From assembly GCA_964035015.1 (NCBI GenBank), contig OZ036007.1, forward strand, positions 13,771,141-13,835,140: 64,000 nt of DNA, given 5' to 3'. This DNA comes from Corallium rubrum (Eukaryota; Cnidaria; Anthozoa; Scleralcyonacea; Coralliidae). A program made the position numbers and the translations under genes. Below, piece after piece: positions 25,314 to 33,300 of the stretch. A model generated the notes under the pieces. That model had not been told where the DNA came from. It ran no database searches and saw only the letters and a program-made list of their open reading frames with translations. Every line of letters starts with the position of its first letter. Position 1 is the stretch's first letter.

Positions 25314-27295
25314 TGTTCCATTTTTTGCTGTTCCGGTGTTCCGGTGTTCCGCTGTTCCGCTGTTCCGCTGTTCCGTGTTTTACTAAACGCCGTTAAAGTC
25401 TTTGGTCTATCTTTTTGTTCGCCTTTATGCATTTTTATGCACGGTGTGCGGCCACTGAACACATTGTATTTTAGTATAATGAGCGAATTGTGCAATAGCA
25501 AGGTTTCAGTTCAATCACTCAACCGTGCTATTTAAATATTAATAAACCTAAAACAAAGGATGTGCACGGTGTAAGGTACGGTTCAACATAAAATCACTGC
25601 TGATTATAGGAGCTTTGAAGTTTGCCGAGTTTCCAGACCATATCTCGATTGACTATGATGTCGCCGATGCAAATTTCGAAACCGTAGACAGTCAGTCGCA
25701 TCATCGATGGTCAGTCGCATCATTGATCTCGTTCCCAAACCCCTGCCTCGGAAATAAACTCATTATTCGGGAACGCATCGAATGTAAATATTTTTCAAAA
25801 AGATGGCGGAGATGCAATCAACAAAGTATACTGGCTATCATGCGTTTTATAAAAGTGTCGCAGTAAGTAGCTTTATGATGTATCTTTTTATTGTAGAAGA
25901 ACTTAGGAATACTAGATTAGACTTGATTTTAGTGTTTGTATTACGTTTTAAAACACTCCAAATTAATACATATAAACACGATCATGTTTATATTCGCGAA
26001 CACGTGGTCTTGAAACAAAGACTTAATACGCGGTATTAAAATCTTGGCATTTCCCACTATAGATCATGTTTAATATATGGCTAATATTACTATATAGCCT
26101 ATGTTTAGTCTTAGTTCACTTAGATATTTTGGTTTAATATCTCTCATGGCACTGTTGGACTATACACGATCCTTTTTAATACTTATAAGAGCTAATTATA
26201 TAGCTAGTGAAGCCAGAAGTTGAAAATTGTATAATTGTAAATAATTGTAGGGTCAGATTAAAGAAAAATTGCCTGATGCAGACTTGAGCGCAATGAGTAA
26301 GACAGCTGCAGGGATGTGGAAGAGATGCTCAACACATGTTCGACAGGTAACAATTTGAAGTTTTGACAAGTAAAATCATCTGGCAATAAATAGAATGTTT
26401 GGTTTAGATTTTCGAACAGATTCATAACAGATTTTAAACATTTTTTGTAGGATTGGAGAAAGGAAGGCCAAAGAGTACGAGAAGACATAGATTGTGGTAT
26501 AATCAACTATGAATGTAGAAAATGTGCAAAATCATTCAGGAAGGCAAAACATGCAACTTACCATGAAAAAACATGTGGACAGTGCATGTGTGCAATATGC
26601 AACAAGAATTTTTCTGGTAAAGTAGCTTTGCTGAAACACATGAATATACACCAAGAGAAGTTTAAATGTGAAACATGCAACAAAGTATTTGGAACCAAAT
26701 ATGATCTGACACGTCACGCAAAAGTGCACAGTAAAGTGAAGGACTTTGCATGTCATACCTGTAATGCTAGGTTTACAACACAGTCCAATAAGAACAGACA
26801 TGCAAAAAACTGTGTATAAATAATATAAAACATTTTGGACAAACTATTGCCATTTCCCTTTTTAAATTGTTACAGGATTATTTAATTTATAGTTACAGAA
26901 TGTTGCCGTATTGCATAAATAAAGTTATATGAAAAAACTATTGTAATTGGCAACAAAATTTAATAATAGAGTTGCAATTTGGCACAATTATTTTTGTAAA
27001 ATAAACATAAAGTAAAATAAATGTTTAAAAGCCAGGTATTCGGATCCTGGGAATAAATCACCACCCATGTATGGTGTTGATGATTGTGGTTAGATATGGT
27101 TAGATTTATGGTTATGGTGCTAGGTTAGGGGTAGAGTTGGCGGTATGGTTATGATTATTTGGCAAAAATTCTGGTTGCAAAAGTTTTTATGTAATATTTA
27201 GACACAAATGGAACGGATGCTAAAGAATTTTTGTTCCGACTTTTTTTTTATCAGCTAAAATGTTGATATTGGTTTAAATTTTTATATAAAGATGC

Positions 27296-27377
<82 letters not shown>

Positions 27378-30300
27378 GATATCCTAAGTGAACAAAATTT
27401 GAAAGACTACTGGACTTAGATGTACAACAGATTAGACGTACAATGATGGGCAAGTCAGGCTTTATGCAACTGTTTGATAGGATTTTTCCTACCAAGACAG
27501 AAGCACCTTAAGGAGGACTAGCTCCACAAAGGATGATGATGATGATGATGATATATATATATGATTAAAAGCACTCTACAATTTGTTTTGATCTTGTCAA
27601 TTGTTTTGATATTAAACATATTCAAGTCCCCAGGGGTCGGGGCTATATCCAATTTTGCGCTTATAGATTATGCGCTGTACCCTGGGGACCTGGGGTATTT
27701 GTCATGATTAGATTGGGTTAACAGACAAATCTCCATGGGTTCCCGGGGGTCTGACCCAGGTTGAAGCCGATGATAGACGCATTACTCCTAGTGAAATACT
27801 ACATTATGTGTATATGAATACTGTTACTAATTTATAAATTGTACAACACTACTCGAAAAGCCGGATAGCGCTATCTACAGTATAAATTTTTCAACTTCTT
27901 TCTCAAAATCTTGAAACTTTAATACAAATACCATATAATCTTTCAATATGTATCAATAACTCAATGTTAGTATGCCTGGGTAAATTCACAGGCTACATGC
28001 AACCAAATTAATTAAATTACTGTTCATAAATTCTAGTTTTGGTAGCCATACTCCTTCCTGCTTTCTTGGCTACTGGTTCATTTCTACGAACATTCTCTGC
28101 AAACTTGTGGGATCTCTTTGGCTTTCCTGCAACCAAAGTAAATGGGTTATTCCTTACAGTTTGTCCTTGTGGTTGTCTTCTCCTTGTTCCATCTGCTACT
28201 TTTCGACGCTTAACAGACTCAGGCTGCACAAATATTTTTCCTCTCTTCTTTGCCTTCTTAACAATAGATGTTGCAGTCAGACGGGTATTGCATACACCAG
28301 CTGCTCCAAAACTGTGAAAACATGTGGCCAGTCTTGACTTCGGCATTTTCTTTGCACGATCTGCAAATTTCAACACACCTCTGAGGAAATTTTGGTCACT
28401 TTCATTATTGTCAAGTTTCCTTTCCAAGGACTCTAATGCCTTGTACAGGGCTTCTTTGCATTCAGCTACCGTTACCAGATCTTGTAGTTTATTCCTGTCT
28501 TGTACAGTTGACTGGGGCGCATCGCCTGTTTCCGAGACTTCCCTAGCAGATAATTGAATCGATGAGCATGGCTCGCTGGAATCTGGCAAAGTGAGCATCT
28601 GGTCGTGCAAGCCCTCATATAAATCCAGGGGTAAGGAAGCACCTAAATGTATAAAGAAGGAAGAATGTGTTTACAATTACATAACAATTTTATATAATCA
28701 GTACTTTTTATTTGCGCCCTACTTTGTTATTTTACTCTCATGCAGTCTAATGGCAGACAATTTTACTTGTCAAGGGAAGACCTTTGCGCCTTAATGGGTT
28801 TTAAAAGCATGCTAAGTATTGTTTAGGTAGCCAGACTCATGAGGGCAGTTGATAATAATCACATTTACAGTAACAAAGCATTTAAATACCTATGGCAATC
28901 TCTGCATACATCTGCCTTTGCTCCTTGCTGAAGATGGGCAAAAAGTTTACAGCAGTTGATACCTTGTTGACCCAGAGAATGTATTGGTGCTTACACGGTG
29001 ACCCATTCATACCAGTCCTGCATTCACAAAACCCACTGTCCATGTCCACCAGATAAGTTTGGTCTTCTTTGCTGATGCTTGGAACACAATACATGTTGGC
29101 TCCAACTTTAGTGATCTTTGCCATTGCACTCTGTTGCTCCTCAGAAGTTGGTTTCTGGAATCCCATACCATCAGATTTCTTCTTGCCTTGTCCCTTAAAA
29201 CGTCTGCTGTAAATTCCATCGAATTTGCCCGATGCAACTGCCAAGAGTTTATTCCGGTAGTGCTGATCAAACTCCGACGTGAATTTGTCCAGTAAAGCTA
29301 CAACATTCACCTCTTTCTGACGGTTAAGAATCTCATCCTTAATAACCAAGAATTGTGCCTCACAGTAATTGTTTGTGTTATTGCCCCTCAAGGGTAGGTT
29401 GACTCTGTAACAGAGTGCCCATGATGTGCGGTCTTCATATACATCTGCAACATACTTGGCAAAATTGGGATATTTTATCATAACTTCATCTGACACAAGG
29501 TTGTCATAATGCTCTTCTAGATCATCCTCACACTCTGCATAAAGGATTCTCTTGAATGCTAGAAGTAGGTGAGGTCTGTAATCCATGGCAATTCCATTCT
29601 TTCTTTCATGTAGCCAACGCCAAACCTAACAAGACAATTACCAAAAATGTCAATGAAAATCATCCTTCGCCAATTGATCAATCACAACTATAAAAATTTC
29701 CAATCACCAAACTGATGTGCCGTCATTTTCTTGATGTTTTTCAAGCAAACAATTATAATTACACTTGGTGGTTCAATTTGGTTAGAGACAGGGTCAGGTT
29801 TAGGATCAGTTTCAAAGCTATTTTAGAGGTTTTTGTATCAACTGTACATGTGCTGGTGGATACTATGCATATAAACACACTATTCTTGTGCGGGTGATTA
29901 GGTTGTATAACTGTGCATGGCAAGTTAATTTCAAGAAATAAAAGACCTTTCACAAGCATTAAAGTTTATATGTATTTATAAAGGTTTATTCGGAAACTTT
30001 TTAAGCATCTTCAGCCATACTTTACCGGTACTTTGTGTTAATTCAATATAGTGGATCACTATAAAGATTAGCAGGTTGAAATATCCAAAGTACGGTATAA
30101 TGAGAGAATTTCAATATGGTACAGAGTTTAAACAGCAGTAACCTAAATATAACAATCAAGTTTTAACAAGTCTTCCGCCAAACTATAAGGAACATACCAG
30201 TACAACAATTCAAAACATGTATGCCATCATACCGATAAAGTAGTGAATTTGACTGTGTTATGAGAAAATATTTAAAATTGTATACCTGCTGGAGCACATG

Positions 30301-33300
30301 GAAAATACACAAGACTGTCGTTGCATTTGGCCAGACCGTTTTTAAAGCTTCTCGTAGTTCACTACAGTTGTCTGTCATGATGACTTTTGGTCCAGTTGAT
30401 GGAGATGCTCCATAAAAGGCAAATTCTGGCAGGGAAGACTGGAACAACTGTAAGGCATCAACAAGCGTTTGTTCCTTCTCATCACTTGTGAACACAATTC
30501 CCAAAGGAAGGGCACCACAAACACTATGTGTCACCATAATGAACACACGAAGATTGTATTCTTCCATGTTGGAAGAAGAATCCAAGAATGCCAAATCATT
30601 GGATTGTGCAACCTGCAAGTAGAGGGAAAATATTCATTGAATAAGTACTTTGTAGCTCAATAATTAAATGCTACTAAATGAAATAATTTGGTATTACCCA
30701 GAATCAAAGAATTTACTAGTTTCTGGAATTCCCTATTGCTTTTTTGTACTTTAAATTAATATACTGAAAGTGCTAATGTGATATGTCAGGGTTGACAAAT
30801 CGCACGAATATACTAAGGCTGAAGGTATACAGTATGAACTGTCTTTTAAGAAAATAGATGGCTCAACGATCCCTTCTTCCCACCTATTGTTAAATGTGAA
30901 TTTCCATGAACTTACTAGCTTATGAACTCTCTTCATCAGAGGAGTGACCACAATCAGGATGAACGGCTGATCAATTTCTTCATCAAATGGCTGGTATTCT
31001 ATGATATATTCTTCATCTGCCTCTTTCAGGCTTTTTATTCTCTCCTCCAGGCTAGAAAACATGTCAGCTAAGCTGCCAGTTCCAAAGCGTTCTTTTTTGA
31101 ACTCCGCATATATATCATTAAAATCCTTTCTTCGTGGTGCTTCCGACCGATCGGAAAGTCTCTGATGGTATTCCAAATCATCCTTGCATTCACTCCTGAG
31201 TTGCCGCAACAGTTCCCGATAAGCTGCACCAGGTAGAAGCCCACTAGTATACATTTCTTTGATTCGACTTGTGACCAAAGGTGGGATATCCTTAAAACTT
31301 AAGGAGTGCAATGATTGCACTGAATGGTTGTGGTTCCATTCAATATCAATCGTTGAACAGAAGTCTTCTGCATCATTCTCTTTACCAATCCTCACTATCA
31401 TTGAATATGGACAATTAGTGTTTTTAAACCGTTTGTTTGGCTCCGATGCCAGAACTTGGTCAGGAAATTTAGTTCCTTCGTATCTTGTATTGTGGTGACA
31501 TCTGAAATACTTTACCAAAACTTGGTTTCCACCTTGAGCTTTCCTGGTCTTCGAGACCCTTAACGTTTCGTTGTTCTTTACGCCATAATTGTTTATGAAG
31601 ACATTAATATCTTCGCTCTTCAAATCAACTTTAATGCTTGCCTTGAATTTGGACGCACTGCCTTCAACACTGACAATCTTATAGTCATCAGCATTCATCG
31701 GCATAATCTCACTTACCCGTGAGAAGAGCTCACAAGTGTTTTTTTCACCAGAAAAACCATTTTGAAAGTCGGAAAGTGCTTTGAGAAGAATGTCGTCCAT
31801 ATTTCTGGCGAATATGAGCAATAAATAAACAATTACTTTCTTGAGCCAGCGTTCTGTGTGGCCTTCTACGACCGCGAGTGGTCTGGGAACGAGATCAATG
31901 ATGCGACTGACCATCAATGATGCGACTGACTGTCTACGGTTTCGAAATTTGCATCGCCGATCGTCGCCGACCCATGATTTAGATGCATGTTAAGTAAAAG
32001 AATAAAAGCACTGCTTTTCTGCATTGTTCTTTATTACTTAACATCCTGCTGCACTTCCCGTTTTAACATGCATCTAACTAAATCACAAATCGCCGACGAT
32101 CGGCGACATATGAGAACCAGGCTTATAAATTTCTTATATTATGCAAATCTTTAATACTCGCAAAAAAGCTGACTTAACAAAAATAACGGACTTGACAGTT
32201 TCATTGTTTATACAGAACAGAACGGTCATAGATCAAGGAACATGCAACATATATATTCGTATTTTTGCATAATATAAGTTAAACGAGTATAATAAAACAT
32301 TTTAATTATTCTAGAGATACCAGTTCATAGACTTGTATGTATGCGGTTGGTGAGCGCCTGATTTGCAAGCTAGTGAACGTCTTTCAGTTTGTTTATTCGT
32401 TAATCTTCTTTATATCGTTGTATTTTGAACCAGGTGCTGTAACATTAACTGGGCTACGAGTCACCGTGTACAGGTAAGAAACATCAATCAGAGGTCGAAA
32501 AATCTTCTGTATTATTTTGATAGTTTTTAATCGTTTGTAAATTTGTTGGGTCAGGTTAGTGTATAAGCTAGGCGGTAAATACACTAGTGGGTCAGGTTAG
32601 TGTATAAGCTAGACAGTAATCACGCTAGTGGGTCAGGTTAGTGTATAAGCTAGGCAGTAAACACGCTAGTGGGTCAGGTTAGTGTATAAGCTAGGCAGTA
32701 AACACACTAGTGGGTCAGGTTAGTGTATAAGCTAGGCAGTAAACACGCTAGTGGGTCAGGTTAGTGTATAAGCTAGGCAGTAAACACGCTAGTGGGCCAG
32801 GTTAGTGTATAAGCTAGACAGTAAACACGCTAGTGGGTCAGGTTAGTGTATAAGCTAGACATTAAACACGCTAGTGGGCCAGGTTAGTGTATAAGTTAGG
32901 CAGTAAACACACTAGTGGGTCAGGTTAGTGTATAAACTAGGCAGTAAACACACTAGTCGGTCAGGTTAGTGTATAAGCTAGGCAGTAAACACACTAGTGG
33001 GTCAGGTTAGTGTATAAGCTATGCAGTAAACACGGTATAGTGGGTCAGGTTAGTATATAAGCTAGGCAGTAAACACACTAGTGGGTCAGGTTAGTGTATA
33101 AGCTATGCAGTAAACACGGTATAGTGGGTCAGGTTAGTGTATATGAGCTAGACAGTAAACACGCGCTAGTGGCTTAGGTTAGTGTATAAGCTATGCAGTA
33201 AACACGTTATAGTGGGTCAGGTGAATGTATAAGCTAGGCTGTAAAGCATTACAAAATATCGGCTATCGGATGGGCTAGCAAAACACATCACAGTTGATCC

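Follow-up and report, generated by a model that had tools for sequence, protein, structure and literature searches.

The 64-kb stretch analysed here (the window) lies on contig OZ036007.1 of Corallium rubrum and contains a Mutator-like element (MULE) of 6284 bp at 25669–31952. The element carries two predicted genes, a transposase gene on the minus strand and, on the plus strand, a gene here called HZ, whose small product would combine an HMG box with zinc fingers. The two genes run towards each other between the terminal inverted repeats (TIRs). By its sequence, the element is a complete and recently mobile Mutator-like transposon in an animal genome, and its second gene is of a kind that appears new for MULEs. 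All exons given below, for both genes, are predictions from the DNA sequence.

The TIRs are 76 bp each, at 25669–25744 (plus strand) and 31877–31952 (minus strand), and there are three mismatches between the two. They are flanked by a 9-bp target-site duplication, GTCGCCGAT on the left (25660–25668) and ATCGCCGAT on the right (31953–31961), with 8 of the 9 letters in agreement. The element thus shows the features that define the MULE superfamily: a MULE-type DDE transposase, TIRs and a target-site duplication of 8–11 bp. It belongs to what we call family A, and another copy of this family, on contig C37, is 99.7% identical to it over 6298 alignment columns (two mismatches and one gap). The C37 copy has its own 9-bp duplication, a perfect 9/9, which differs from that in the window, so the two copies would be separate insertions; their near-identity suggests that the activity of the family is recent. 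The original prediction of an intact animal MULE, made from the letters of the window, is borne out by the TIRs, the duplication, the four-exon transposase without a stop and the presence of Wnt genes in the genome. The right end of the element adjoins a repeat with inverted ends at 31962–32125, resembling a miniature inverted-repeat transposable element, of which at least 39 further scored copies (from 1535 candidates) exist genome-wide at ~95–97% identity. Because of the spacing of these other copies, the MULE was probably inserted into the left end of this repeat.

HZ has three exons, at 25803–25862 (start of the HMG box), 26251–26346 (core of the box) and 26451–26819 (end of the box and four fingers, the first and last of C2HC and the middle two of C2H2 type). 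Joined, they encode 174 residues. In Pfam, HMG_box matches residues 11–64 of the family A protein at 28.4 bits (cut-off 25.4) and zf-C2H2 matches four stretches, and all matches above cut-off are to the HMG box or to zinc fingers; both domains had been recognised in the original prediction. A profile of the HMG part from six HZ members matches TOX (4.8e-7), SSRP1 and HMGB1 in the PDB. The designed protein DHT03 also scores, at 3.3e-4 over 22 positions, and the weaker of the profile matches are therefore no proof. Residues G6, F10, W38 and W49 of this part are common to 6/6 aligned HZ sequences. The helix residues −1, 2, 3 and 6 of the fingers vary between HZ families.

The transposase gene comprises four exons with GT..AG introns, at 30916–31800, 30286–30612, 28890–29625 and 28017–28642 on the minus strand, which join into 857 residues without a stop. 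The Pfam MULE domain is found at 5.4e-9 (36.8 bits, cut-off 27.6). Exon 1 holds an N-terminal Cys/His cluster, to which Pfam FAR1 matches only at E 0.33; exon 2 the first and second D of the DDE triad (LDSSSN at 305 and TDN at 375); exon 3 the E (NNYCEAQF at 489) and a SWIM-like C-C-C-H at 604; and exon 4 the C-terminus. The claim of DDE and SWIM motifs is thereby upheld for the catalytic residues. For SWIM, the C-C-C-H arrangement is there and the Pfam SWIM model itself stays below its cut-off (13.4 against 19.6 bits); many MULE transposases, though not all, carry SWIM or some other zinc finger. Exon 1 was also modelled from a nine-sequence input, giving a predicted local distance difference test score of 71.5 and a predicted template modelling score of 0.56. 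The model had no PDB match at E ≤ 0.001 by Foldseek, and a profile search with exon 1 gave no match either.

The stop codons of HZ and the transposase lie 1197 bp apart, and the genes converge as had been proposed. The start codons had been placed 80–135 bp inside the element; this is correct for HZ, with its ATG 134 bp from the element end, and too short for the transposase, with its ATG at 152 bp. The intergenic part contains TA/CA and GAT microsatellites (window 27287–27376 and 27531–27562), and the length of the CA run seems to vary among copies.

HZ and the transposase across the genome

The genome (474 Mb in 312 contigs) was searched with both proteins; contigs are designated below by C and loci by L numbers. 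The whole HZ protein gave at least 243 matches, with 150 of 1057 candidates scored: three near-identical copies of exon 3 (window, C37 and C38) were followed by relatives of 34–55% identity and then by general zinc-finger genes. Long C2H2 zinc-finger frames, of up to 840 codons, are numerous in this genome and are clustered at 77–86 Mb of C1 and on other contigs. A query made of 44 residues at the beginning of exon 3 gave just 22 matches, with all of its 25 candidates scored, which rules out a chance zinc-finger match. With C1:76.89M, added from the whole-protein search, HZ is found at 23 places. At 21 of these it is accompanied by a convergent transposase, whole or partial; 19 cases, the window included, were read directly and two (C82:1.67M and C12:15.71M) were taken from match coordinates. 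The transposases at HZ places are ~36–70% identical to that of the window. A search for further copies, proposed with the original prediction, had been expected to tell a component of the element from a single captured gene, and HZ does lie between TIRs in several diverged families.

Twenty stretches of 8–10 kb were fetched. In 18 of them HZ occurs together with MULE transposase sequence, and the two converge each time, so that every HZ exon 3 locus read over several kilobases (19/19 with the window) faces a whole or partial MULE transposase. L030, L036, L044 and L046 are the loci where the transposase is matched in part only. Of the other two stretches, L031 is a transposase end that lacks HZ, and L032 is an end in which exon 1 is the sole part of HZ. 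On C49, fragments of HZ and transposase lie side by side. Seven elements are bounded by TIRs and 9-bp duplications, the window (8/9) and L029, L034, L038, L041, L045 and L046 (9/9 each), and all seven carry both genes, whole or decayed; a full-length copy without the plus-strand gene, which would have spoken against the original prediction, is not among them.

The copies differ in their state of preservation. The HZ frame is open in the window, L029, L033, L034, L037 and L046 and broken by a stop or a frame change in L035, L038 and L045, the last of which has arms of 115 bp that are 100% identical. The C38 copy (L030) is a deletion copy, with HZ exons 1 and 3 kept, the end of exon 2 lost and the transposase reduced to its last part. 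A short copy of 326 bp (L008:1501–1826) has TIRs, with a motif of a further type, and a perfect 9-bp duplication, GGCGGCGAC; inverted inside it is an apparent leftover of the first HZ exon, reaching to the GT.

A search with transposase exon 3 gave 53 matches in the genome, which were grouped by hand into clusters, those whose best stretch reached 42% identity forming the near set. HZ adjoins 20 of the 22 near clusters, counting the C49 fragments. For the 14 clusters below 42%, HZ is not among the matches listed there; one of them was read, over 3 kb, and an HZ-like frame was not seen in the 3 kb downstream of this 34% identical transposase at C8:15.38M. HZ therefore seems to be confined, in this genome, to a single MULE clade. 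Three transposases of 34% identity, at C8:15380742, C25:14484896 and C82:1446805, each lie within one open frame, of 1683, 1722 and 922 codons respectively. A scan of viral contigs found no relatives of transposase exon 3.

The introns of HZ have the same phase-0 positions and GT..AG borders in four families, A, B, C and E; for C (L037), exon 2 was given its start by eye, at the nearest fitting AG. Between families, silent divergence (dS) of HZ is saturated and replacement divergence (dN) is 0.26–0.77, which fits selection for the protein. HZ and transposase distances are correlated (Mantel r 0.67, reached in 3 of 5000 permutations); the distances are query-anchored with stops and gaps skipped, the nine representatives were hand-picked, and L046 enters with 67–233 aligned transposase residues. 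Since HZ is convergent to the transposase in diverged families, keeps its introns and zinc ligands and has distances correlated with those of the transposase, it is an old inherited component of this MULE clade, and the two genes have diversified jointly. HZ thus looks like a functional part of the element. The related loci, the shared introns and the correlated distances rule out that a host gene was captured just once.

Terminal motifs and target sites

Each TIR of the window element contains a 14-bp motif twice, with a period of 19 bp. The left copies are at 25691–25704 and 25710–25723 (plus strand) and the right ones at 31917–31930 and 31898–31911 (minus strand). The sequence, GTCAGTCGCATCAT, occurs four times in the whole window, each time inside a TIR, compared with 0.39 occurrences expected by chance when up to two mismatches are allowed. 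In the families of the genome the ends start with GCAA[A/T]TTT..CGTA[A/G][A/G]C, followed by the motif of ~14 bp. Comparison of 14 TIRs, read in one register, shows a second copy in 13 of them, 19 bp on (18 in L042) and matching the first at 12–14 of 14 positions. Compared pairwise across eight families, the first copies agree at 6–12 of 14 positions: eight of the 28 pairs reach 10 or more (A–B, C–E and pairs within D/E/L046/F) and the other 20 show 6–9. The motif lies 80–130 bp upstream of both start codons and would be a suitable place for an element-specific protein to bind, either HZ or the transposase. As it is doubled in most families and differs between families, it becomes more plausible that HZ is its reader, and we infer, in line with the original prediction, that HZ may recognise the duplicated motif.

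Target sites were compared in 17 elements with a readable end, using one 9-bp flank each, the left one if both were readable (window, L029–L031, L034, L035, L037–L042 and L044–L048). The count leaves aside L032, L033, L036 and L043, with ends decayed or absent, and matches to GCAA..TTT that lack the following motif, in L034, L037, L039, L040 and L043. Position 6 is C in all 17 flanks, position 4 is G in 16 and position 1 is G in 10; C at position 3, G at position 7 and C at position 9 each occur in 14. The mean GC content of the flanks is 0.76, against 0.398 for the window, and the lowest value is 5/9. CG stands at both 3–4 and 6–7 in 11/17 flanks compared with 0.19% of the 9-mers of the window. 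The consensus, GNCGSCGNC, is palindromic and rich in CpG, and it is also fitted by the duplication of the short copy in L008, which is outside the 17. These MULEs prefer such a palindromic, CpG-rich 9-mer for insertion. In this they differ from the mosquito MULE Muta1, which in the available part of its description shows no apparent sequence preference on reinsertion in yeast (PMC5225508).

Possible roles of HZ

The reading we favour, at about even chances, is that HZ is a small DNA-binding helper, encoded by the element and acting at the TIR motifs. The fingers would recognise the repeated motif that each family has in its TIRs, and the HMG box would bend the element end, by which the transposase would be recruited or the two element ends paired. 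Because this motif is found upstream of the two start codons, its binding might control the transcription of the genes as well. Such an element would form a two-component system with the layout of maize MuDR and a partner protein of another kind. A wider proposal is more tentative, and we would put it at somewhat less than an even chance: that these elements form an undescribed clade of two-component animal MULEs in which HZ and the motif that it reads have changed together through ~8 lineages and the complex directs insertion to GNCGSCGNC, making HZ a counterpart of mudrB and VANC of independent origin.

Several observations weigh against a helper that acts at the TIRs. HMG_box is above the Pfam cut-off only in family A and below it in the four members of families B, C and E tested. 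Within family B, HZ of L033 and L034 differs by one silent and six replacement changes, without silent excess, although this is expected of dead insertions, in which single copies drift. The number of motif copies is not fixed, the left TIR of L046 having one and L047 three. The difference in motif between families is milder than an estimate in unequal register had given (0.14–0.43), and motif divergence may follow the divergence of the transposase as much as that of HZ. The N-terminal Cys/His cluster of the transposase, RCxHxTR ... HNH, is invariant, and the transposase itself may bind the TIR motif through it. Finally, the two genes are not always found together: at C247 there is HZ and no transposase within the 3 kb read, and HZ was not found at two near transposase clusters, C15:408k (3.8 kb downstream were read and contain neither of the two genes) and C8:39.75M.

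The helper reading has to be set against other functions for a sequence-specific partner. HZ could act as VANC does in Arabidopsis, binding the tandem motifs of its element against silencing and taking no part in cutting or joining. VANC is likewise encoded by a MULE and, according to the part of the report available, binds specific motifs that are often in tandem and vary between related elements (PMC5735166); here, too, the motif is mostly arranged in tandem, is not the same from family to family and has a variable copy number, as L046 and L047 show. The targets of VANC, in the same source, are in introns and upstream regions (PMC5735166), whereas all four copies of the motif in the window are confined to the TIRs, and we regard this role as unlikely, if still to be taken seriously.

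We think it rather improbable that HZ serves instead to choose the target, binding or bending the CpG palindrome while the transposase alone handles the TIRs. The strength of that palindrome in the flanks, in GC content as in paired CG dinucleotides, would be in keeping with this role, as would the lack of apparent preference in Muta1 (PMC5225508) and a description of maize mudrB as needed for integration (PMC8224964), as far as these sources go. Selection of the target is, in general, usually made by transposases themselves.

A self-made repressor, limiting transposition by covering promoters in the TIRs, would be served by the place of the motif between each element end and each start codon; nothing points to repression in particular, and the C38 deletion copy, in which HZ is kept with exon 2 damaged, is not a repressor-only copy, so we give this little credence. 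That HZ is a functionless fragment of a host gene, such as MULEs are described as picking up (PMC6446971, available text) in the manner of Pack-MULE cargo, or else a product of chance, is scarcely credible when diverged families share the gene, its place and its introns and when 21 of the 22 matches of the 44-residue query, all but C247, are HZ genes or remnants adjoining transposase sequence.

Relation to known elements

The original prediction had likened the element to maize MuDR, in which mudrA and mudrB are reportedly convergent. The comparison is sound for the layout, a second, convergent gene between the TIRs, and for that only. MuDR is also a MULE with TIRs and two genes (PMC6446971), but HZ is an HMG-box and C2H2 protein, unlike mudrB as described. 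In the portions of the literature at hand, the MuDR TIRs are promoters for both genes, and mudrB is needed for integration and is called a novel protein of unknown function (PMC6446971, PMC8224964).

The nearest animal case in the literature surveyed is Spectre, a group of arthropod MULEs (Dupeyron 2019). Like the window element, one complete Spectre element has two ORFs (open reading frames), which supply a C2H2 domain and a transposase; its TIRs measure 74 bp. It differs in its 8-bp duplication, here 9 bp, and in that the available text mentions no HMG box and gives neither the orientation nor a TIR motif (PMC6446971). The table of the same paper gives Spectre one ORF and TIRs of 76 bp (PMC6446971). 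Mutyl of Yarrowia resembles our element in that C2H2 is listed for the sub-group of its mutB, and differs in having TIRs of 22 bp and, in the text available, no mention of an HMG box (PMC6446971); its genes have the same orientation in the text and are antisense in the table (PMC6446971). VANB and VANC of the Arabidopsis VANDAL elements resemble HZ in its suggested role, being MULE-borne, sequence-specific partners with tandem targets that differ between related elements (PMC5735166). The domains of VANC are DUF1985 and DUF287 and its targets, as described there, lie in introns and upstream regions and are not limited to the TIRs (PMC5735166).

A MULE with an HMG-box partner was not found in the literature searched, for most of which the best 8–15 of 14 to 1,120 matching papers were covered, Repbase and most subscription papers being outside it. 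The term 'HMG' is absent from the main text of PMC6446971 and PMC13359780 and appears in PMC8277862 only in the reference list.

A partner protein exists in another superfamily, too: that of Harbinger elements is a Myb-like protein that helps the transposase. Harbinger elements of Ectocarpus resemble the window element in arrangement, with a transposase and a second, convergent gene placed tail-to-tail, according to the part of the description available (PMC12477816).

One further observation concerns the assembly. Ten of 11 matches to COX1 are on contig C129, partly broken, and the best lies in a frame of 539 codons without TGA. Animal mitochondria usually read TGA as Trp, and because this frame is without it, C129 may, as a guess, come from the mitochondria of a symbiont, which could be a dinoflagellate.

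Mutator elements have unlike helper genes (mudrB, mutB, VANB/VANC), several of them of uncertain role. The helper that HZ may represent is built of recognisable DNA-binding modules. With some eight lineages in a single genome, each of which has its particular helper and TIR motif, there would be a natural set of pairs, which makes the role of a MULE helper directly testable. The preference for CpG palindromes as targets offers a second testable trait.

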